NCBI GenBank assembly: GCA_030841035.1 | Contig: JAVEDI010000030.1 | Location: 1 to 49,586 of the forward strand | Length of the DNA stretch: 49,586 nucleotides | Direction of reading: 5' to 3' | Origin: Actinomycetota bacterium | GTDB lineage: Bacteria; Actinomycetota; Actinomycetes; JACCUZ01 | In this document: positions 32,926 to 49,586 of the stretch, piece after piece | How the letters are laid out: every line of letters starts with the position of its first letter | How positions within the stretch are numbered: the stretch's first letter is position 1 | The notes under the pieces: model-generated | Databases searched by the model: none | Seen by the model: the letters and a program-made list of their open reading frames with translations, nothing else | Told to the model about the DNA's origin: nothing | Translations under genes and position numbers: made by a program

Positions 32926-34089
32926 ATGACGAAGCTCTGGACAGCCGGGTTGGCACTGGTCGCCGCTGCCACGGCGGCCTGGATAGGGGTGGGGACAGCG
33001 GCCGGCGATCGGGAGCCGCCGGTCGCACCGCCCGACGCGACCTGGACGACGGTGTTCCGCAGCCCGCTCGCGATCGAGGGCCTGGCCACGGACGCCGAGG
33101 ACCAGCTGTACGTCGCCCAGCGAGGAGCCGGCGGCGACTGCCCGATCGTTCGCATCGACCCAGCGGGCGGTGACGGCCAACCGGGAGTTGTCGTCGGGAA
33201 GGTCACCGCGCCGTGCAACCCCAGCGGGCTGGTGTTCGGTCCGGACCGGCGGTTGTATGTCACCGGTGCCGGATCGGCCGGCGATCAGATCGCCGCGCTC
33301 GCACCGAGCGACGCGGACCCGGCCGACCCGCCCGTTGCGAGTGTGTTCGCGACCGGCATGCCGGGCGCCAACGGCGTCGTCTTCGACTCCGCCGGCAACC
33401 TGTACGGGTCTGACGGGGGCACCAACCAGGGTCGCGTCTTCCGGGTCGGCCCCGCGGGCGGCGCAGCGACGGAGATCTTCCGCGTCCCGTCGATGACGAA
33501 CTCGGTCGGCGTCGGCCGGCAGGACCAGACCGTGCAGCCGGCAGCAGCGCGAGCCCCCGCGGCGACGCAGGGGATCGTCGCCAACGGCCTGGCCGTCGGC
33601 AAGGACGGCGCACTGCTGGTCGCCGACACCGCGCGTGGTGCTCTGTGGCGGGTGACGGTGGCCCGTTCGGGCAAGGTCCTCGCCCACACCGGCTGTGACC
33701 TCACGTTCAGCAAGGACACGCTCTGCCTCGACGCGCTGGTCGTGCAGCACCCGGCACTCGAGGGCGCCGACGGCATCACCGTCGACCGCCGGGGGAACGT
33801 CTGGGCGGATGCGAACGAGCGGAACGCGATCGTCATCGTCGACCGCCGGGGTCGTGTGTCGGAGTTCTTCCGCAACCCGGCCGGGGCGCAGGACCAGCTG
33901 CGCAACGCCGGGCCGCTTGAGTTCCCGACCAGCCCGGTGCTGGCCGGCGGGACGGTGTGCACGACCAGTTCGGACGGCAACCGGCGCGACAACTCACCTA
34001 ACAGCGCCGGCGAGAGCGCGCCGGGCAGTGCCGTGCTCGGCAAGGTCTCGTGTCTGGACCAGCGAGTGAGCGATCCCGACGGGCACTGA
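32926..34089 (+). CDS. Secreted beta-propeller protein (SMP-30/NHL-like)
   Basis: This 387-residue protein has a signal peptide (hydrophobic LWTAGLALVAAATAAWIG, residues 4-21). The mature part has repeated strand motifs such as GLATDAEDQLYVAQRG, GLVFGPDRRLYVTG, GVVFDSAGNLYGSDGG, GLAVGKDGALLVAD and GITVDRRGNVWADA, typical of SMP-30/gluconolactonase-like propellers. Conserved cysteines near GGDCP, APCNP, GCDL and LCLD could form disulfides. CTGGAGG precedes ATG 32926. The substrate is unknown. Confidence 0.8.
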   Translation: MTKLWTAGLALVAAATAAWIGVGTAAGDREPPVAPPDATWTTVFRSPLAIEGLATDAEDQLYVAQRGAGGDCPIVRIDPAGGDGQPGVVVGKVTAPCNPSGLVFGPDRRLYVTGAGSAGDQIAALAPSDADPADPPVASVFATGMPGANGVVFDSAGNLYGSDGGTNQGRVFRVGPAGGAATEIFRVPSMTNSVGVGRQDQTVQPAAARAPAATQGIVANGLAVGKDGALLVADTARGALWRVTVARSGKVLAHTGCDLTFSKDTLCLDALVVQHPALEGADGITVDRRGNVWADANERNAIVIVDRRGRVSEFFRNPAGAQDQLRNAGPLEFPTSPVLAGGTVCTTSSDGNRRDNSPNSAGESAPGSAVLGKVSCLDQRVSDPDGH

Positions 34090-34146
34090 ACCCCGCCCCT
34101 CGGCTCACCCACCGGCGGGCGGGCCCCCCGTCGCGCCGGGTGCACC

Positions 34147-34205
34147 CGTTCGATAGGCCTGTGGTCGCTGATGTCGGCTGCCGGCGACCCTGGGCCTATC
34201 GAACG
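34147..34205. terminator. Hairpin element at convergent gene ends, also a dispersed repeat
   Basis: Arms CGTTCGATAGGCC (34147-34159) and GGCCTATCGAACG (34193-34205) are perfect complements. An inner stem GGTCGC/GCGACC (34163-34168 and 34184-34189) extends it. It lies between the propeller gene (plus) and the DMT gene (minus), whose stop codon is inside the right arm. A related copy is at 38303. It probably terminates both transcripts. Confidence 0.75.
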
Positions 34206-35008
34206 TCGTCACGGGGCGGCGGGGGTCCTGCCGGCGCGACGGCCGCTTGCAGCAGCACGACGCCCAGGCCGGCGCCGAGCGCGCCGAGGACCGCGACCGG
34301 CGACACGTGCGGGGTCTGGTGCAGGGTGGGGATGGCGAGCGCGACGGCCGTGACCGGCTCGCTGAGGGTGAGGGCGGCCAGCGACGGCCCGATCTGTGGG
34401 GCACGCAGTGCTGCGTGGGCGACCTGCAGGGCCAGCAGGCCGACGAGCGCGGCCGCGTACGCCTCAGGGCGCAGCGGTACGTCGCGCAGCGGCGTGGCCG
34501 CGACGGAGGCGAGCAGCACGCCGGCGCAGCCGACGATCACGCCGGCTGCGAGGCCCATGACCAGCGCCGGTCGCCTGCCCCGGGCGAGCAGGGCTGCCGC
34601 CACGGCAAGGCCGAGCGGCAGGGCCACGGAGCTGCGGCCCGGGACTGCCTGCGCCTGCGGCGACTGGAACGCCGCGAACAGCACGATCCCCGCCGTGGTC
34701 AGCGCGGTTCCGGCCGCCGTGCGGCCGGTGATGCGCCCGCTGAGCACCACGGCGACGGGCAGGCCGAGTACGAGCAGGGCCTGCACCAGGGCGACCGGAG
34801 CGGCGCGCAGCGCGACGTACTGCAAGGCCACCGCCGCTACCTCCGCGGCGCCGGCCAACCACCACCGCCCGCGCCTGGCGAGATCGGCCAGCAGGCGCAG
34901 GTCCAACCCGCCGCGGGCGGCGGTCGTGGCGACCGCGGCGAACTGTCCGGCGCTGGCGAGGCCATAGCCGCCCGCCGAGGCGAGCGCCGCGGCCACCGCC
35001 AGGTTCAT
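34196..35008 (-). CDS. DMT-superfamily membrane protein (EamA-like)
   Basis: This 270-residue protein has nine to ten hydrophobic helices with Ala/Leu-rich sequence. Two EamA-like halves are visible, the second with PSLAALTLSEPVTAVALAIPTL. It is last in a minus-strand operon with the polysaccharide deacetylase and the glycosyltransferase fusion. ATG 35008 overlaps the deacetylase stop (ATGA). It may move a lipid-linked or sugar precursor for the glycolipid made by the neighbours (inference). The stop lies inside a terminator hairpin. Confidence 0.78.
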   Translation of the reverse strand: MNLAVAAALASAGGYGLASAGQFAAVATTAARGGLDLRLLADLARRGRWWLAGAAEVAAVALQYVALRAAPVALVQALLVLGLPVAVVLSGRITGRTAAGTALTTAGIVLFAAFQSPQAQAVPGRSSVALPLGLAVAAALLARGRRPALVMGLAAGVIVGCAGVLLASVAATPLRDVPLRPEAYAAALVGLLALQVAHAALRAPQIGPSLAALTLSEPVTAVALAIPTLHQTPHVSPVAVLGALGAGLGVVLLQAAVAPAGPPPPRDDVR

Positions 35009-38497: not shown

Positions 38498-39331
38498 TCA
38501 TCGTCGGCCGGGTGGCTGGTGGCGTCGGTCCTTTACGGCGGTGTGCAGTGATGCCCAGTTCGCTGCGTTGAGGTCTCGGGGTAGCCGCCTCTCGCCGAGC
38601 CCTTCCCTGGACAGCCACTGCCGGATAGCTGACTGTGGAAGCTGCCCGCGCAGGATCTGGGCGATCCCGTGTCCCCGGCCGGTGAACACCTCGCGGACCA
38701 TGCGTTGGTATCCCACTCGCTCTTCGTGTGGGACGAGCGGGTGGGTTCGCCGGGTGATCGTGAGGATTCCGCCGTCGGTGGTTGGCATGGGCTCGAATGC
38801 CGCGGCCGGTACGCGCTGAGCGAGGGCGAACTCGTACCAGGGCCACCAACTGGCGGTTAGCAAAGTCGTGCCCCCGACGGCCGCGCGTTTGCGTGCGACA
38901 TCCCACTGCAAGAGCAGAACTGCGGTCTGCCAGTGTGCTTGTGGCATCAGCCGGCGTAGCACCGGCGTTGTGATCGCGAACGGCACGTTGGAAGCGATGT
39001 GGTGCGCACGCGGCCCGTAGTCGAAACGCAGCATGTCTGCGGCCACGATCTCCACGCGTGCGCCGAATTGACGGCGGAGACGGGTCAGGCAGCGTCGGTC
39101 GACTTCAACGGCGGTGATGGATCTGCCGAGGTTGAGCAGCTCGCGGGTCAGTGCGCCGTTGCCAGCTCCGAGTTCGACAATCGGAAGCGGCGGGGCGTGC
39201 CGCAGGATGTCAGCCATCACGGCGGGGAAACGGCGGTCGACGAGCCAGTTCTGGCCCATCTCATGTCGTCCAGGCAGATGCCGGATCGAAGGTGCGGCGG
39301 CTGGGCGCGGGTAACGGCGATGGTCGGGCAT
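38498..39331 (-). CDS. erm: Erm-type 23S rRNA adenine N6-methyltransferase (macrolide resistance)
   Basis: This 277-residue protein has Erm/KsgA features: GQNWLVDRRF at the N-terminus, SAM-binding VELGAGNGALTREL, EVDRRCLTRL, ADMLRFDY and the catalytic SNVPFAIT. Erm enzymes methylate A2058 and block macrolides, lincosamides and streptogramin B. A C-terminal extension after LTITRR is typical of actinobacterial Erm. ATG 39331 follows GAAGGA. It lies beside mobile-element debris. Intrinsic resistance versus acquisition cannot be settled here. The exact erm class is not assigned. Confidence 0.88.
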   Translation of the reverse strand: MPDHRRYPRPAAAPSIRHLPGRHEMGQNWLVDRRFPAVMADILRHAPPLPIVELGAGNGALTRELLNLGRSITAVEVDRRCLTRLRRQFGARVEIVAADMLRFDYGPRAHHIASNVPFAITTPVLRRLMPQAHWQTAVLLLQWDVARKRAAVGGTTLLTASWWPWYEFALAQRVPAAAFEPMPTTDGGILTITRRTHPLVPHEERVGYQRMVREVFTGRGHGIAQILRGQLPQSAIRQWLSREGLGERRLPRDLNAANWASLHTAVKDRRHQPPGRR

Positions 39332-41281: not shown

Positions 41282-41992
41282 ATGCGTGCGGCTGCGAACG
41301 GGCATGATGCGTCTGTGCCGTCACTGCTGCCCTCGGAACTCGCCGATCTCGCCGAGCGTGCGACGAACGAGGGATGGGCGACAGGACAGGCGGATCTGGG
41401 ACGGCTGCGATACGCCGCCCAGCGCCTCGACTGGGCCATCGTCGAACTTCGCAGCGGCGACGGAGGTAGCACTGCGCTACGGCCGACCCCGACGGAGCTG
41501 GCGCATCCTAGATCACACAGCGCAAAGGTAGGAACGGGCGAGCAGCCGTTGCACACCGACGGGGCTCACCTCCGATACCCGCCCCGCTGGCTCATCCTCT
41601 ACTCGGAGGAACCGAATCTGACGCCGTCCCTCTTCTTCCGGCTTCGTCCGCGTCTCGTGATGACGCGCCTTGCGGTATCGCTGCCGCAACGAGCAACCGA
41701 TGGCCTGTTTCTTGTCGACAGCGGCAGCGATCGCTTCTTGGCACTGCTACAGACGTCCGGCGGTGGCTGGAGATGGGACCCCGGATGCATGACTCCTTGC
41801 GATCAGCGAGCCCGTGAAGCGGCAGACTTTCTCGGCTCACTTTCCGGTGCCGCGCAGGCCTATGAGTGGGCCGAACCGAATCAGTTCCTGTTGCTGGACA
41901 ACACCCAGATGCTGCACGCCCGTGGCGATGCAAGTGAAGATGACCAGCGGTGCCTGACGCGGCTGGCCTACTCACCAAGGGTGCCCTCATGA
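41282..41992 (+). CDS. Putative Fe(II)/2-oxoglutarate oxygenase (TauD/clavaminate synthase-like)
   Basis: This 236-residue protein has a probable double-stranded beta-helix iron site: QPLHTDGAHLRYPPRW (HxD) in the middle, and a distal LLLDNTQMLHARGD (His), followed by CLTRLAYSPR where the family places the 2-oxoglutarate-binding Arg. The start is uncertain: ATG 41282 or GTG 41315. The stop overlaps the HEPN-motif gene (ATGA), so the two are coupled. The substrate is unknown. It is short for the family (about 270-300). Confidence 0.65.
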   Translation: MRAAANGHDASVPSLLPSELADLAERATNEGWATGQADLGRLRYAAQRLDWAIVELRSGDGGSTALRPTPTELAHPRSHSAKVGTGEQPLHTDGAHLRYPPRWLILYSEEPNLTPSLFFRLRPRLVMTRLAVSLPQRATDGLFLVDSGSDRFLALLQTSGGGWRWDPGCMTPCDQRAREAADFLGSLSGAAQAYEWAEPNQFLLLDNTQMLHARGDASEDDQRCLTRLAYSPRVPS

Positions 41993-42903
41993 GTGACGTC
42001 TACGACTCCGAAGCCCTCTGGCTCAAAGCGCGATTGTTCGTGAACCATGCCATGGACCACGAAGAGCCGCGAACTTTCGATGAGCACGCACTGTGGGCGT
42101 CGCTCGCCTTGGAGCTACTGGCAAAGGCGGCGCTGGCACGGGTGAACCCTCTCTTGATTGCCATGCCAAATGAGGAAGGCGCTCATCTCCTTGCTGCGTC
42201 TGGTTTGCTCGATGGTGATGGGCCAGCGATGACGGTCGGCGCATCGACCGTCTTCAAGAGGTGCGCACGAGTCTTCCGGCCGTTCAACCTGGCCGAAGCG
42301 CTTCAGTTCGCGAATAACCGCAACCAGTACCTTCACAGCGGAGCAGCGACCGTCACCTCACTCCCGGAGACAGCGTTCTGGCCTGCCTTTTGGAGCCAGG
42401 CGGCAATCCTGATCTTGGCCCAGGACCGGGACATCTCGGAATTCGTCGGTGCTGATCGCGCCGACGAGGTCGAAGCACACCTCGCCCGCAACAGGCAGCA
42501 CGTCGAGCAGCGTGTCGAGACTCTGATCGGCCGGGCTCGCCAGCACCTCGACCTCATTGCATCGGGAAACGCCCCTGAACGCATCCTTGCCGCCTATCGG
42601 CGCGGGGGCGACCTTCGGGCGGGTCTTCGCTATTCAACAGAGGCCTCATGTCCGGCATGCAGCGAAATCGGGACTGTCGAAGGGGAGCAGCCCGAGGGAC
42701 ACGAACTGCGGTACGAGCAGGTCGGGGAGGACGACTTCGACGTCTTCGCCGACGTCTCGGTGTACGCCGACTACTTTAGCTGCGCCAACTGCCGCCTGGT
42801 CCTTGATGATGCTGAGTTGCTGGAAGTAGCCGGCCTAGTCGACCTGTTCGATGTCGAGGGAGATCCCGCGGAGTTCGTCAGTGGCGATTACGGCAACGAC
42901 TAG
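41989..42903 (+). CDS. HEPN-motif protein with C-terminal zinc ribbon
   Basis: This 304-residue protein is helical over residues 1-200. It carries RNQYLH (111-116), a match to the HEPN RNase signature R-polar-x3-5-H, with preceding ALELLAKAALA helix. The C-terminal part has CPAC (221-224) and CANC (265-268), a four-Cys zinc ribbon, and acidic tails. ATG 41989 overlaps the upstream oxygenase-like stop. HEPN proteins often act as RNases in toxin-antitoxin or defence systems, but catalysis is inferred only from the motif. An IS5-type element begins at or just after its stop. Confidence 0.6.
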   Translation: MSDVYDSEALWLKARLFVNHAMDHEEPRTFDEHALWASLALELLAKAALARVNPLLIAMPNEEGAHLLAASGLLDGDGPAMTVGASTVFKRCARVFRPFNLAEALQFANNRNQYLHSGAATVTSLPETAFWPAFWSQAAILILAQDRDISEFVGADRADEVEAHLARNRQHVEQRVETLIGRARQHLDLIASGNAPERILAAYRRGGDLRAGLRYSTEASCPACSEIGTVEGEQPEGHELRYEQVGEDDFDVFADVSVYADYFSCANCRLVLDDAELLEVAGLVDLFDVEGDPAEFVSGDYGND

Positions 42904-43420
42904 GGCGTGTCTCCTTATTGGCGGAGCCAGATGAGGATGGCGCGCAGGACGATTCCGCCGCGGTAGATGGTGGCGAGCTTGTCGTAGCGGGTGGCCAGGC
43001 CGCGCCACTGCTTGTGGTCGTTGAAGGAACGCTCGATCACGTTGCGGCCGCGGTAGCGGTCGGCGTCGAAGCAGGGCGGGCGCCCGCCGGCGCTGCCGCG
43101 TCGTTGGCGGTGGGCGATCTGGTCGCTGGGCTGCGGGATGACGGTGGTGATCCGCTTGCGGCGCAACAGTTCACGAGTCCCGCGCGAGGAGTAGGCCTTG
43201 TCACCCAGCAGGGCCGCTGGCCGGGTTCGTGGCCGTCCACCGCCAAGACGCGCCACGGCCAGGTCGGCCAGCAGCACCGGCAGCATCGGTGAGTCGCCAG
43301 CCTGGCCGGCGGTCAGCGCGATGACCAGCGGGCGGCCCTGGCCGTCGACCAGCTGGTGAATCTTGGTCGAGAGCCCACCGCGAGATCGGCCCAGCGCGTG
43401 GTCCAGCGGTTCGGCGCCCG
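42904..43420 (-). mobile_element. IS5-family (IS427-like) insertion sequence, 5' truncated
   Basis: The minus strand encodes the C-terminal two thirds of an IS5-type transposase from LDHALGRSRGGLSTKIHQ to the stop at 42915, including ALLGDKAYSSRGTR and the DDE Glu region NVIERSFNDHKQWRGLATRYDK. The outer end near 42904 (GGGCGTGTCTCC) is the probable terminal repeat. The other end and the N-terminal part are missing; IS481-like sequence takes over between about 43400 and 43440. It is non-functional as it stands. Confidence 0.8.
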
Positions 43421-43920
43421 GGTCTGCGCCGCGAATCACACCCACCCGGTGATCGGCTACGGCTACCTCCACACCGCCATCGACGACCACTCCCGGCTGG
43501 CTTACAGCGAAGTGCTGCCCGACGAGCAGGCCGACACCGCCGCCGCGTTCTGGACCCGGGCGATCGCCTGGTTCGCAGGCCACGGCGTCACCATCGAACG
43601 GGTGCTGACCGACAACGGCCCCTGCTACCGGTCCCGGCAGTGGGCCGCCGCCTGCACCGCCCACGCCATCACCCACAAGCGGACCCGGCCCTACCGGCCC
43701 CAGACCAACGGCAAGGTCGAACGGTTCCACCGGGACCCTGCTCGTCGAATGGGCCTACGTGCGGGTCTACACCTCCGAAGCCGCCCGGACCCGGGCGTTG
43801 ACCGCCTGGCTGCACCTCTACAACCATCACCGCACCCACACCGCGCTCGTCGACAAGCCCCCAATCAGCCGCATCCCCCTCAACCTCATCGGGGCACAAC
43901 ACCTACGTGTCCTGCCTTAG
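43421..43920 (+). pseudogene. IS481-family transposase, 5' truncated and frameshifted (copy 1)
   Basis: The frame shows the IS481 catalytic core: GYGYLHTAIDDHSRLAYSEV, VERVLTDNGPCYRSR-like sequence and QTNGKVERFHR. At 43731-43734 one extra G shifts the frame. The remainder (LLVEWAYVRVYTSEAARTRA to the TAG at 43918) continues in another frame and reads normally. The N-terminal half is absent at the IS5 junction. A pseudogene is likely, though a sequencing indel at the G run is possible. Confidence 0.8.
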
Positions 43921-44937
43921 GACGTTGTTGACAGGTCGTTGCGGCGTGGCGAGTTGATCAAGCACGCTAACGCCCGACTGACCCTTCATGCCCGCAGGCT
44001 GCTCGTCGAGCGGGTCGCGGCCGGCTGGCCGCAGGCCCAGGTCGCCGAACAGCTGGGGGTCAGCCGGCAGACCGTGTCGCGCTGGTGGCGCCGCTACGTG
44101 GACTCGGGTGAGGCCGGGCTGGCCGACCGGTCCAGCCGACCGCACCGCCAGCCGGCGCGCACCCCGATCAAGGTCGAGCGGCGGGTGCTGGCCGCCCGCA
44201 GGCGGCTGCGGGTCGGGCCGGTGGCGCTGGCCGCCGCCACCGGGTGCGGGCCGCCACCATTGGACCGATCCTGCGCCGCCACCGGGTGCCGCTGCTGCGC
44301 GAGTTGGACCTGGTCACCGGTGCCCGGGTCCGGTCCCGGGCCACCGACCGGCGTTACCAGCACCCCCCGGCCCGGGGACCTGATCCACGTCGATGTCAAG
44401 AAGCTCGGCCGGATCCCGGCCGGCGGCGGCTGGCGGGCACACGGGCGCAGCGGGGCGGTGCGCGGCCGCGGGCTGGGCTACGACTACGTCCACTGCGCGG
44501 TCGAGGACCGCACCCGGCTGGCCTACAGCCAGGTGCTGCCCGACGAACGCGACGCCACCTGCGCCGGGTTCCTGCACTGGGCGCTGGTCTGGTTCCGCGG
44601 CCACGGCGTGGTGGTGCGCCGGGTGCTCACCGACGACGCCCAGGTCTATCGCCGCGGCGGGACCTGGGCGGCGGTGTGCTCGGCCTGGCAGGTCAGGCGC
44701 CGGTTCATCAAGCCTGGCTGCCCGTGGACCAACGGGGAAGGTGGAACGCTTCCACCGCACCCTGCTCACCGGCTGGGCCTACCGGCGGCCGTACACCAGC
44801 ATCCCCGCCCGCACCCGCGCCCTGCCCCGCTACCTTGATCACTACAACAGCAAGCGCGGGCACACCGCTCACCAGGGCCGACCCCCGATCAGCGCCCTCG
44901 CCGCATGACCATCAACAACCTGTCCAGGCAGGACACC
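43907..44937 (+). mobile_element. IS481-family element, copy 2, with terminal inverted repeats and three frameshifts
   Basis: Left end GTGTCCTGCCTTAGGACG (from 43907) and right end, reverse-complemented, GTGTCCTGCCTGGACAGG (to 44936) share GTGTCCTGCCT and a nearby TTGTTGA: terminal inverted repeats. Inside (43939-44908) is an IS481 transposase: HTH AQVAEQLGVSRQTVSRWWRRY, DDE residues in DLIHVDVKKLG and VLTDDAQVY, and VERFHRTLL. Three single-base indels break it: a missing G near 44242, an extra C in the C6 run 44363-44368, and an extra G in the G4 run 44734-44737. It sits next to copy 1 and interrupts whatever preceded 44940. Confidence 0.85.
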
Positions 44938-45318: not shown

Positions 45319-45849
45319 TTGGCGCTAATCGCTTTGCTACTCCAGATGGCTCTCGGTGTTCTCTTCTTGGTGGCGGGCGGGTCGAAGTTGTTCAGCCCAG
45401 ATCCGTTGACTCGGACGCTCCGTACAATCCTGCGCCTGAGTTGGACCAGCAGGATTATCGAACTCGTGGCGCGCGGGCTTGGGGTCGTCGAGATCGTTTG
45501 CGCCGTGTGCGTGAGCGCCATTCCTAAGTTAGGCGCGCCTACCGCGTTCGCCCTGGGGGCCGGCATCGCCGTGTTCAGCCTCATCGCCGTGACCGGCGAC
45601 CATTCGATTTCATGCGGCTGCTTTGGCCGGAGCGGCGGACGTCCCCTCGGGGTACGGAATCTACTGGCCGGTGCGGGAATCATGGCAGGGGCAGGGCTGC
45701 TGGTGATTCTCGTGGCAGAAGGCGAGCTAACAGAGAATCGATGGCCGGAAACCATGGCACTTGTCGCTCTCGCCACCATTGTGTATGTCACCGCCAATGA
45801 CGCTTCAACAATTGCGCCTCTCCTTCGCCGACCCAGGAGTGCCGAATGA
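45319..45849 (+). CDS. MauE/DoxX-like membrane protein
   Basis: This 176-residue protein has four hydrophobic helices. A MauE-type signature ISCGCFGRSGG is seen, and LGVLFLVAGGSKLF in the first helix is typical of MauE/DoxX proteins. MauE is known to act with MauD in disulfide formation of the methylamine dehydrogenase small subunit. TTG 45319 follows GGGGGAGG. The stop overlaps the MauD-like gene by 4 bases. It opens a lower-GC operon whose third gene is a 14-cysteine exported protein. Confidence 0.85.
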   Translation: MALIALLLQMALGVLFLVAGGSKLFSPDPLTRTLRTILRLSWTSRIIELVARGLGVVEIVCAVCVSAIPKLGAPTAFALGAGIAVFSLIAVTGDHSISCGCFGRSGGRPLGVRNLLAGAGIMAGAGLLVILVAEGELTENRWPETMALVALATIVYVTANDASTIAPLLRRPRSAE

Positions 45850-46382
45850 GGCTACTCGATTACCTGATCGTCGCCTTTTTGGTTGTCGTCGCGGTATCGC
45901 TCGTCGGCCTCTTTGCGATGATGGGCGAACTTTCGGCAAGAGTGGGTGAGCGGCCCGCCGACGGAGACGATGACACGCTGGTCCCCATCGAGGGCATTCC
46001 ACACGGTGCTCGGCCAGCGTGGTGGCCAAGTCAACTTGCCGATCTCGAGCAGCTGGACGAGTCGGCAGCCCTGGTCTTGAGTTCGGTATGTGCCTCCTGT
46101 CGGAAAATTGCGCTGGAGCTCGCGAGAACGGAAATTGAGGCCGCCCTTCCACTTCGCCTCGTGATCGCCTGCGGAACTCCGGAGGCAGGTCTAGCATTTC
46201 TTGGGGAAACTGGCCTCCGGGAAGACGAGCGAACCTATATAGATGTAGCGGGAGACTGGGTCAGGAGGAGCTTCGGTGTCAGCGTGAGTCCCGCGCTTCT
46301 GCGGTTCAAGGACGGGGCCCTTTACAGGGCGGACACGCTGGGTTCAGTTAAGGCCCTACACAGCAGCCTAGTAGCGAGTTGA
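45846..46382 (+). CDS. MauD-like membrane-anchored thioredoxin-fold protein
   Basis: This 178-residue protein has an N-terminal membrane anchor (LLDYLIVAFLVVVAVSLVGLF, residues 3-23) and a thioredoxin-like domain outside. The redox site is SSVCASCRKIAL (Cys82, Cys85), and VSPALLRF supplies the cis-Pro loop. MauD has this layout and is thought to promote or isomerise disulfides. It overlaps the MauE-like gene (ATGA) and is followed by the Cys-rich protein gene. A disulfide role on that protein is a strong inference. Confidence 0.85.
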   Translation: MRLLDYLIVAFLVVVAVSLVGLFAMMGELSARVGERPADGDDDTLVPIEGIPHGARPAWWPSQLADLEQLDESAALVLSSVCASCRKIALELARTEIEAALPLRLVIACGTPEAGLAFLGETGLREDERTYIDVAGDWVRRSFGVSVSPALLRFKDGALYRADTLGSVKALHSSLVAS

Positions 46383-46393
46383 TCGGAGGAGGA

Positions 46394-46735
46394 GTGCCTG
46401 CTCGAAGCGATTTGATTCCGACGGTACCCGCTAAGGCGCGGCCCAGCCGTCGACGATTTCTCTCCCATTTCGGCACACTTGGTCTCGCCACGTCGGCGAC
46501 CATCTTCGCCACCCCTGGCCGAGCCAATGCAGACGCGTGCACTCCATGCTGCGACTTGGTCTTCTGTCCCCAGAACATTTCAATCACGACGTGCCAGAAC
46601 GCATGTCATAACTACATCTGGTCGTGCCGCGTGTGCGGCGGCGGCAGTTGCGTCACATGCTCGTGCTGCGAGAGGTACACGAAATGCCAGGGCGGTGTCA
46701 TCAATGGCTCCGCGGCTAACTGCCAGCCGACGTGA
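46394..46735 (+). CDS. TAT-exported cysteine-rich protein (14 Cys), probable substrate of the Mau-like machinery
   Basis: This 113-residue precursor has a twin-arginine signal, PSRRRFLSHFGTLGLATSAT, ending near ANA|DA at residue 46. The mature part of about 67 residues has 14 cysteines (CTPCCDLVFCPQ, TCQNACHN, SCRVCGGGSCVTCSCCERY, KCQ, NCQ), an even number that would allow seven disulfides. The CSCC cluster recalls the methylamine dehydrogenase small subunit MauA, but the protein is shorter, has one Trp, and lacks MauB nearby. GTG 46394 lies right after GGAGGAGGA. No known family is assigned. It may be a structural peptide, an enzyme subunit or a bacteriocin. Confidence 0.72.
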   Translation: MPARSDLIPTVPAKARPSRRRFLSHFGTLGLATSATIFATPGRANADACTPCCDLVFCPQNISITTCQNACHNYIWSCRVCGGGSCVTCSCCERYTKCQGGVINGSAANCQPT

Positions 46736-46753
46736 CGTCGAAGGAGGTGCCGA

Positions 46754-46816
46754 GTGACACTGTGGATTCTTCCGGTCGTCTTCCTGGGTGGAGTGCTTCA
46801 GCTCTTCAGCCCTTGA
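46754..46816 (+). CDS. 20-residue hydrophobic peptide with perfect ribosome site
   Basis: A very short frame begins GTG 46754, 4 bases after AAGGAGGT, a near-perfect Shine-Dalgarno sequence. It encodes 20 residues starting MTLWILPVVF and ending LFSP, which would form one membrane helix. The stop (46814-46816) is 9 bases before the next gene. It sits in the operon between the Cys-rich protein and the multi-pass protein. Being so short, it is supported by its ribosome site and position rather than by homology. Confidence 0.55.
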   Translation: MTLWILPVVFLGGVLQLFSP

Positions 46817-46825
46817 GGGCGATCT

Positions 46826-47422
46826 ATGATTGGCGTGACCAATCCTGGCGGCAGTGTGCGCCCGCGCAAAGAAGTTTACGCGGCAGTGGCCTCACTGGCG
46901 ATCGGCTATTCGATCAGTACTGCCTTCGTGGCTCTAGTGCTCACGACGGTGGCGGCCGTTGTGCCACATTACTTTAGTGATTCTTTGAGACTAGGTGCCG
47001 TGATCAGCGTGCTGATTCTCTTCGGGCTCGCCGACCTGACCGGCCGCACGCCGATGACTCAACGCCAAGTTCCTCAAGTGTTCGCCCGGACGCTAGGCGT
47101 CGCGCCCCGTAACTTGCTCTGGGGACTTGACTTGGGTCTGCTTATAACGACACAGAAGACCAGCTCCCTTATTTGGATCGGGATTACCACATCGCTGATC
47201 GTCGAACGGGGCCAGATTCTCACCGCGTTGGTCCCATTGGTCGCCGCGGTGGCGTTCCTAGGGGCATACACCGCAGCAGCCGTTTCAAAGCCAGAATGGA
47301 AGGCGACCCAGCGGTTGGCATCAGCGGGACTCAATGGGACGGCCCTGGAAACAATCCGAGTCGCGTCCGGAGCGTTCGCACTGGCTATTGCAGCTACTCT
47401 AGCGGTGTCTCGGCTTGGATAA
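46826..47422 (+). CDS. Multi-pass membrane protein, MauF-like position
   Basis: This 198-residue protein has about five hydrophobic helices (for example IGYSISTAFVALVLTTVAAVV, LGAVISVLILFGLADL, LLWGLDLGLLITT, LVPLVAAVAFLGAYTAAAV and the last at 180-196). No CxxC is seen. In mau clusters MauF is a membrane protein needed with MauE and MauD; this protein holds the equivalent place but sequence identity to MauF cannot be claimed. It may be the redox partner channel or an exporter. Confidence 0.65.
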   Translation: MIGVTNPGGSVRPRKEVYAAVASLAIGYSISTAFVALVLTTVAAVVPHYFSDSLRLGAVISVLILFGLADLTGRTPMTQRQVPQVFARTLGVAPRNLLWGLDLGLLITTQKTSSLIWIGITTSLIVERGQILTALVPLVAAVAFLGAYTAAAVSKPEWKATQRLASAGLNGTALETIRVASGAFALAIAATLAVSRLG

Positions 47423-47450
47423 TCAGTTGGCGAGCGTACAAGGCGGCCTT

Positions 47451-47798
47451 GTGGTGATCACTCGGTTTGAGTGCCCCAATAAGAGAACGGTTTTGGAAAT
47501 TCTCTGGCTCCATTTTCTGCTTAGGCGCCGGTGTCGCCGAGCCCTGCGTTCGCTGATTGACGTTAAAGCGCATGCCTCATGGCGACAACGTCTCGTTCTA
47601 AGCGTGTCCCTGTGGTCAGAGCCGACCGGCGTCCTAGGAATGGGCGCCATAAATGAGCATGTTCGTCTCTCACGATTTCCCAGCAAGCGGGGTATTGCAA
47701 CATCATGCGGAGTCTTCACCTTCAGTGACGATTGGCGGAACTTGATGTTTGGCGCGAATGCCGTGGCGCGGTCGCCACTTTCTGAAGAAGCACCTTAA
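47451..47798 (+). CDS. Hypothetical protein, possible ABM-like monooxygenase fold
   Basis: This 115-residue protein starts at GTG 47451 or earlier (TTG 47415 overlapping the previous stop). Segments LVLSVSLWSEPTGVLGMGAINEHVRL and TSCGVFTFSDDWRNLMFG recall ferredoxin-fold small monooxygenase-type proteins (tentative). AAGGCGG precedes it. There are no signal or membrane segments, so it acts in the cytoplasm. It could modify the Cys-rich protein or a cofactor. Confidence 0.5.
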   Translation: MVITRFECPNKRTVLEILWLHFLLRRRCRRALRSLIDVKAHASWRQRLVLSVSLWSEPTGVLGMGAINEHVRLSRFPSKRGIATSCGVFTFSDDWRNLMFGANAVARSPLSEEAP

Positions 47799-47827
47799 AC
47801 AGGAGCGACCTACTTGGAGGTTGTGAG

Positions 47828-48091
47828 ATGAGCATACCGACGGATCGCGGGTTTGTACGTATTGGGGTTCCGGATGAAACTGGTCGTTTCTCCGTGACTG
47901 TCTACACAAGTCTGCCAAACGCTGGCATAGTTAGACCATATGCAATTCACACAGGAATCCTGATGCTACACGTAGATCCTCGCGTCGAGTTCGCCGAGAA
48001 GGACGGCGTGAGGCTCTCCCTGACGCCGTTGGCGGTGTTGGAAGATGCCTCGGGGCTCTATCTGCAACCGGCCCAAGATGCCACTTTATAA
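47828..48091 (+). CDS. Small hypothetical protein in the Mau-like operon
   Basis: This 87-residue soluble protein is predicted to be beta-rich (RGFVRIGVPDETGRFSVTVYT). GGAGG precedes ATG 47828 by 8 bases, a good ribosome site. Its stop overlaps the possible start of the lipoprotein gene. No family is recognised. Confidence 0.55.
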   Translation: MSIPTDRGFVRIGVPDETGRFSVTVYTSLPNAGIVRPYAIHTGILMLHVDPRVEFAEKDGVRLSLTPLAVLEDASGLYLQPAQDATL

Positions 48092-48101
48092 CGCACGGCG
48101 A

Positions 48102-48647
48102 ATGTTCGGAAGGCGGCTGCGTCGGGTAGCTGGACTGTGCGCAGTCGCACTTATGACTTGTTTAGGCTGCGCTGCCTTCCACAGCGATTCCAGCGAGTCG
48201 GCGAAGCCATCGGCTTCTAGCGGAAAGGTACCGGGGAAGACGGCTGTCCGCGACGCTTGCGCGTCGGCGTCCGTCTCCACGGGGCCACTGCCAGAGCCTT
48301 ACGCGAGCAGGGTAGGGAATCCGAACGCCGGTTTCTGGCTCGGTGCCGAGGGCTTCGTGGCCCTCCTATTCTATGCGACAGATTCCCCCGTCATCGCGAC
48401 TGGCGGCAAGATGCCCGATGGACGAAACACGAAGGTTCTGTGGCTCACGCGTCAGCGACAAGACGCGCCGGTGACGTTGACCGGGGTGCTGACCGACGAC
48501 TCTGACGTCAAGATCTCCCAGGAACTGTCAGGCGCCTACGACTTTCCGAGCATCGTTGACCTTCCAGCCCCTGGTTGTTGGCGCCTGAGCCTTATAGGGC
48601 AAAAAGGCAGCCTGGGATCAATCAAAGTGCCGGCTGAGGTCATGTAA
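48102..48647 (+). CDS. Putative lipoprotein
   Basis: This 181-residue protein has a lipoprotein signal: FGRRLRRVAGLCAVALMTCLGCAAF, with the lipid-linked Cys in CLGC. The mature part has a Ser-rich linker, then DACASASVSTGPLPEPY and GCWRLSLIGQKGSLGSI; the Cys residues could pair. The start may be ATG 48102 or ATG 48078, which overlaps the upstream gene. It would be anchored outside the cell membrane. It is the last gene of the operon before a hairpin at 48680. Confidence 0.65.
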   Translation: MFGRRLRRVAGLCAVALMTCLGCAAFHSDSSESAKPSASSGKVPGKTAVRDACASASVSTGPLPEPYASRVGNPNAGFWLGAEGFVALLFYATDSPVIATGGKMPDGRNTKVLWLTRQRQDAPVTLTGVLTDDSDVKISQELSGAYDFPSIVDLPAPGCWRLSLIGQKGSLGSIKVPAEVM

Positions 48648-49223: not shown

Positions 49224-49586
49224 ATGGGGGACGTCCTCGATCACGGGCCTGCCCGTCCGGCGCGACGGCGCCGGTGGGTGCTGCTGGCCGGGGCCGTCGC
49301 CGTCTCCGTCGCAGCGGTGGCGCTCGCCGTCACCGGCCGGGACCCGGTGCCCTCGCTGCGCGGCGCAGCGCCGGAGGCGAAGCCGACGTCGACGCCGAAT
49401 TCGACATCGACCCAGCCGGAGGGGAGGAAGCGGGCCAGCCTGACGCCCGCCGACCTCCAGCCGTGGCCGTCCGCAGCTGGCGCCTGCGGGAACGACGCGT
49501 CGCTGCCCCTGCTGTCCGTTGATCAATTGCACGCCACCACCGGCCTCACGGCCCTGATCGGGGGGGGGGGGGGGGGGGGGGGTGGG
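49224..49586 (+). CDS. Membrane-anchored protein, 3' end missing at contig edge
   Basis: The frame from ATG 49224 stays open to the end. It has an arginine-rich start (ARPARRRRW), one membrane helix (VLLAGAVAVSVAAVALAVTG, residues ~18-37), a Thr/Ser/Pro-rich linker (KPTSTPNSTSTQPEG), and then SLTPADLQPWPSAAGACGND, suggesting an extracellular domain. The ribosome site GGAGG is close to the ATG. After LTALI the sequence is a G run, an artefact. Family unknown. Confidence 0.6.
   Translation, partial: MGDVLDHGPARPARRRRWVLLAGAVAVSVAAVALAVTGRDPVPSLRGAAPEAKPTSTPNSTSTQPEGRKRASLTPADLQPWPSAAGACGNDASLPLLSVDQLHATTGLTALIGGGGGGGGG
49560..49586. other. Poly-G tail, sequencing artefact
   Basis: 23 consecutive G (49560-49582) followed by TGGG. 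Runs like this at the end of draft contigs are typical of two-colour sequencing chemistry reading no signal as G. It is not biological sequence. Confidence 0.85.

Follow-up and report, generated by a model that had tools for sequence, protein, structure and literature searches.

The window analysed here, a 49,586-nucleotide stretch of Actinomycetota DNA, carries a cluster of Mau-type redox genes that includes a predicted selenoprotein. A UGA codon at position 46814 lies within a gene for a homologue of MauF and, judging from the comparison of homologous loci, is almost certainly decoded as selenocysteine (Sec). The resulting protein, Sec-MauF, would very probably represent a previously unlisted selenoprotein family, absent from both a 2026 catalogue and NCBIfam 20. 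The preferred reading, to which a probability of roughly 75% is assigned, is that the cluster forms a maturation line for a Tat-exported cysteine-rich protein, with Sec-MauF as its membrane redox carrier. It also appears likely that this family is widespread in the phylum, that it acts as redox core in the Tat-linked assembly of surface proteins containing between 14 and more than 20 cysteines, and that a plasmid can carry it along with its own Sec-decoding genes. The gene content, the synteny, the exchange of TGA for TGC and the presence of the Sec machinery are established at the level of sequence.

Organisation and distribution of the gene cluster

A tblastn search of plasmids found one record in which the MauD-like protein and the multi-pass protein are encoded together, NZ_CP109276.1 (locus L027), a linear plasmid of Streptomyces anthocyanicus. 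The gene order on this plasmid is that of the window (MauE, MauD-like protein, cysteine-rich Tat protein, small peptide, multi-pass protein and two small proteins), and the protein pairs encoded by the shared genes are all similar. A search with MauE alone recovered only distant family members. For the window subtype, one close relative is known.

All of the open reading frames listed in the first-pass annotation are present in the window, on the forward strand. The first (45319..45849) encodes a MauE-like membrane protein with a CGCFG motif, an assignment borne out by Pfam PF07291 (E-value 3.1e-16; 60.3 bits against a gathering score of 27), and is syntenic with L027:7054-7605. It is followed by a gene (45846..46382) for a MauD/TlpA-like thioredoxin-family protein with a CASC motif. 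Although this protein has no Pfam match, and its syntenic Streptomyces counterpart (L027:7590-8150) matches Thioredoxin_2 only weakly (0.011), the two are 38% identical over 151 amino acids, in keeping with the MauD-like designation. The third gene (46379..46735; relative at L027:8247-8573) encodes the presumed substrate, a Tat-exported protein with the signal motif SRRRFLSHFG, and the earlier description of a twin-arginine precursor with 14 cysteines, CSCC among them, is correct, all 14 falling in the final 68 residues. What had been described next as a 20-residue membrane peptide (46754-46816) and a separate multi-pass protein (46826-47422) is a single in-frame gene for the predicted MauF-family selenoprotein (46754..47422; 222 amino acids), with a GTG start, a TAA stop and the TGA read through.

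Two small proteins conserved in the cluster follow, both as first described: a cytoplasmic protein (47415..47798; 36% identity over 114 amino acids to L027:9306-9743) and a second small protein (47828..48091; 30% identity over 83 amino acids to L027:9740-10024, pairwise E-value 2e-6). The lipoprotein-like reading frame that had been included at the end of the system (48045..48647) does exist, but the syntenic Streptomyces cluster has no counterpart of it and its membership is uncertain. The lower GC content noted at the outset also holds, at 56-63% in the cluster against about 70%. Just upstream (window 42915-44908) are transposase genes that appear to be broken into frames, comprising an IS481-type helix-turn-helix and rve frame (43939-44908), a further rve frame (43356-43931) and an overlapping DDE frame on the minus strand (42915-43730); these fit acquisition of the low-GC cluster. 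With the low GC, the transposase genes and a relative on a plasmid, it is plausible that the cluster was acquired. At its far end (49559-49586) the contig closes with a run of G that is probably a sequencing artefact.

The same partners recur in other genomes. Wherever homologous loci have enough flanking sequence, the MauF-like gene lies beside genes for MauE, a TlpA/MauD-like protein, a protein of about 160 amino acids and a cysteine-rich Tat protein; locus L078 stops short of the position expected for the last of these. Within 1.5 kb on each side of the TGA loci L100-L123, a TlpA-like gene is found at 24/24 and a cysteine-rich gene at 20/24. In two genomes with the cysteine form (L080 and L081) the MauF-like gene is divergently transcribed and the same partners adjoin it. 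Among the phylum-level cysteine loci, a cysteine-rich gene occurs within 1.5 kb at L127 only, so that the co-occurrence is weaker for the cysteine form.

The repeated association of Mau-type redox genes with a cysteine-rich Tat gene lends substance to the original suggestion of a dedicated assembly and export system, although the MauF selenoprotein in it had been missed. Novelty can be claimed for less of the system than was first thought, since Streptomyces clusters with MauE/MauD, a precursor of at least eight cysteines and no other mau genes were described by decRiPPter in 2020 (PMC7794033). Likened to the present cluster by description only, those families share MauE, in one family also MauD, and the cysteine-rich precursor, but differ in that a MauF-like selenoprotein was not recognised there.

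The cysteine-rich Tat protein and its proposed maturation

The cluster is proposed to be a maturation system of the MauF/MauE/MauD type for a Tat-exported cysteine-rich protein, operating without a dehydrogenase. MauE and the MauD-like thioredoxin would act on disulfides outside the membrane, while Sec-MauF, a CcdA-like multi-pass protein in which selenocysteine replaces the cysteine of other MauF proteins (SP-U/C-G-x-S), would most likely pass electrons or exchange disulfides across or at the membrane. The selenocysteine is presumably redox-active, and we infer that the cysteine-rich protein is the substrate and, likewise, the direction of electron flow. The proposal draws on analogy with the mau system: as stated in PMC7794033, with reference to van der Palen (1997), methylamine dehydrogenase maturation requires MauE and MauD, and MauE has been speculated to form disulfides. 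The Paracoccus denitrificans mau operon (NC_008688.1) has in common with the present cluster a MauE-family protein, a MauD-type thioredoxin, a MauF homologue with SP-C/U-G-x-S and a Tat-exported cysteine-rich protein encoded after mauD, in the position of MauA. It differs in that here selenocysteine stands for cysteine in MauF, MauB is absent, extra small proteins are present and the cysteine-rich protein is not recognisable as MauA.

The presumed substrate of the window is difficult to trace by similarity. Viral contigs, plasmids and genome contigs yielded no relatives, and 394 genomes of the class gave chance-level matches only; such searches fail because the protein diverges too fast. In the larger group of clusters the precursors contain 19-24 cysteines and, where examined, the cysteine domain is followed by LGFP repeats, which point to the cell wall. 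Two of these LGFP-repeat cysteine-rich Tat proteins (L033 11034-12422; L034 6866-8584, minus strand) represent a conserved unnamed family (CPPGSFAGGWWK, FRYGQC), whose cysteine domain has no match in Pfam or the PDB. Comparison of the short window protein with the cysteine domain of the larger group gave no demonstrable homology, and PDB chains searched with the cysteine-rich profile gave no match.

It has to be considered that the exported product is instead a cysteine-rich ribosomal peptide of the bacteriocin-like RiPP type, in which case its disulfides would be introduced by the Mau-like proteins, with the small proteins serving in immunity or regulation. This would accord with the placing of MauE/MauD clusters with cysteine-rich precursors among RiPP candidates by decRiPPter (PMC7794033), and with the short mature part (68 amino acids) and fast divergence of the window protein. 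It is nevertheless unlikely, as the cysteine domain of the larger group is well conserved and joined to wall-binding LGFP repeats, which would not be expected of a peptide toxin; Tat serves for export in place of an ABC exporter, and no RiPP-type modifying enzyme was seen in the Streptomyces cluster.

Still less probable is that the cysteine-rich protein is a distant MauA-like subunit with a tryptophan-derived quinone, belonging to a dehydrogenase encoded elsewhere. MauF, MauE, a MauD-like protein and a cysteine-rich Tat protein do constitute a mau gene set, and the larger family has conserved tryptophans and a CPPGS stretch that also occurs in MauA. Against this, when the family was compared with MauA (Pfam PF02975 and profile comparison), the Tat signal alone aligned and the cysteine domain was unmatched. 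The short window protein, moreover, has a single tryptophan. AlphaFold models of the cysteine-rich family (pLDDT 32) are too poor for a comparison with the MauA fold. In agreement with the first-pass annotation, which had seen no dehydrogenase, a MauB profile that recognised Paracoccus MauB as a positive control found no match in the window genome or 35 relatives (0/36), control genomes also being without MauB. The profile check of the cysteine-rich protein likewise placed it in no Pfam or NCBIfam family beyond the Tat signal.

A predicted selenocysteine codon in a MauF homologue

The case for selenocysteine begins with the two syntenic clusters, in both of which the small peptide ends in FSP-TGA and the multi-pass reading frame continues in the same frame. 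Read through, the window gene (TGA at 46814..46816) gives LQLFSP-U-GRSMIGV and the Streptomyces gene LQVFSP-U-GQSMAGV, and the two proteins are 40% identical over 144 amino acids in an alignment that spans the TGA. Each has a single selenocysteine and no cysteine. The RefSeq entry for the Streptomyces gene, the one annotated record examined, is a truncated hypothetical protein with its start placed after the TGA. When genomes of the class were searched with the read-through profile and stops were allowed, additional loci came to light, each interrupted by exactly one TGA in frame. Across the fetched homologous loci the codon is TGA in 33 and TGC in five, always in one alignment column and in the context (W/F)SP-x-G-x-S, and in the TGC (cysteine) loci the gene is one uninterrupted reading frame. 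These counts exclude G241 (L044/L082), whose match was weak and partial and lacked the motif. A scan of genome contigs with two-row patterns having cysteine at the selenocysteine codon found no match. In a sample of the phylum, the read-through profile matched 64/396 genomes, 53 of the 64 having exactly one TGA.

The same column holds cysteine in MauF itself. Comparison of the family profile with Paracoccus MauF by hhalign gave a probability of 98.1 and an E-value of 1.2e-13; MauF reads TWSPCGYSS, and SP-C/U-G-x-S is invariant in the joint alignment. On this sequence evidence the window read-through protein is a MauF homologue. By itself the window multi-pass protein has no Pfam match, and one relative passes the cut-off of Pfam DsbD_2 (PF13386). 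An AlphaFold2 model of the read-through chain, with cysteine in place of selenocysteine, is fairly confident, with a pLDDT of 82 and a pTM of 0.73. It shows a single fold for the whole chain, in which helix 1 consists of the first 18 residues, ahead of the TGA. The top Foldseek match of the model is CcdA, which is not significant (E 0.17), and VIA-align gave middling helical-bundle scores, with CcdA not among the 50 matches listed. Carriers of the CcdA/DsbD type are similar in being multi-pass and in having a redox residue that follows SP where helix 1 ends, but differ from the window and Streptomyces proteins, with their one selenocysteine and lack of cysteine, and the similarity of the window protein to them is not significant. 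A selenoprotein with a DsbD-like part is known in TsoB, the rhodanese/DsbD fusion-like protein (NF045694; PMC13188914), but TsoB has a rhodanese-like domain and two selenocysteines (UxxxxU). No NCBIfam 20 model matches the present read-through proteins, nor is there such an entry among the 119 prokaryotic selenoprotein families of the 2026 catalogue. In a literature search with subscription journals outside its scope, no report linking MauF or MauE to bacterial selenoproteins was found.

Hairpins downstream of the codon were assessed with the published bSECIS model and energy limit (PMC13188914). The model is satisfied downstream of the TGA at 26/30 loci, against 9.5 expected from synonymous recoding of the same residues, an excess that is not an independent-sample probability as the TGA loci are related to each other; for TGC loci the figures are 1/5 and 0.9. 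Hairpins typical of the family read CCCC-GGUC-GGGG (at 29 nt) or CCCGCUC-GGU-GAGCGGG (at 33 nt), and that of Streptomyces also qualifies (GGCCGG-GGUCG-CCGGCC at 17 nt; -12.2). The candidate hairpin of the window (46828..46844, plus strand; GAUUGG-CGUGA-CCAAUC, apical loop 17 nt past the UGA) has the position and size of the Streptomyces one, with paired base changes. It is weak: no window hairpin past the TGA reaches the published energy limit, the best being -5.8 kcal/mol, and Rfam finds no SECIS at gathering score within the window. For the window's own copy, the hairpin is the weakest point of the selenocysteine reading.

Selenocysteine machinery and its association with the gene

In the genome from which the window derives, selA (41694-42956), selB (42976-44760), selD (34088-34999) and tRNA-Sec (38690-38781) all lie on contig C90. 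On the Streptomyces plasmid, tRNA-Sec (on the other strand), selD, selA and selB directly follow the cluster (L027 10075-14416), as if the Sec machinery travelled with it. Taking at least 67 bits as a true tRNA-Sec match (other tRNAs score at most 55), matches were found in 6/8 TGA genomes, 0/2 TGC genomes and 12/40 genomes without the gene. Assembly is incomplete for the two TGA genomes that lack a match, and SelA is present in both, while it is absent from both TGC genomes. Either tRNA-Sec or SelA is thus found in 8/8 TGA genomes tested and 0/2 TGC genomes (Fisher p = 0.02, from small numbers and ignoring kinship).

That the TGA is a true stop, ending a short membrane peptide, with the downstream protein restarting at a nearby ATG and the GAGG at the TGA as its ribosome-binding site, is scarcely credible: both in the window and in relatives TTGAGG does lie shortly 5' of an ATG in the same frame, and the window hairpin is weak, but the stretch separating TGA from ATG is conserved (G-x-S), MauF has cysteine at the same place, five TGC loci have one continuous frame there, the TGA/TGC exchange tracks the Sec genes and the chain is modelled as one fold that includes helix 1.

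Read as selenocysteine, the codon adds a selenoprotein family whose TGA form occurs in about 53/396 sampled genomes of the phylum. It suggests that selenium can be required for assembling exported proteins rich in disulfides, gives the little-studied MauF a testable role and offers a possible reason why these bacteria retain the means to insert selenocysteine; for experiments, the TGA/TGC pairs that occur in nature provide ready material. In the window genome, genes for a molybdate-type ABC transporter adjoin tRNA-Sec (L029 3671-6480), and the Sec machinery there may also serve a molybdenum enzyme, for instance formate dehydrogenase.
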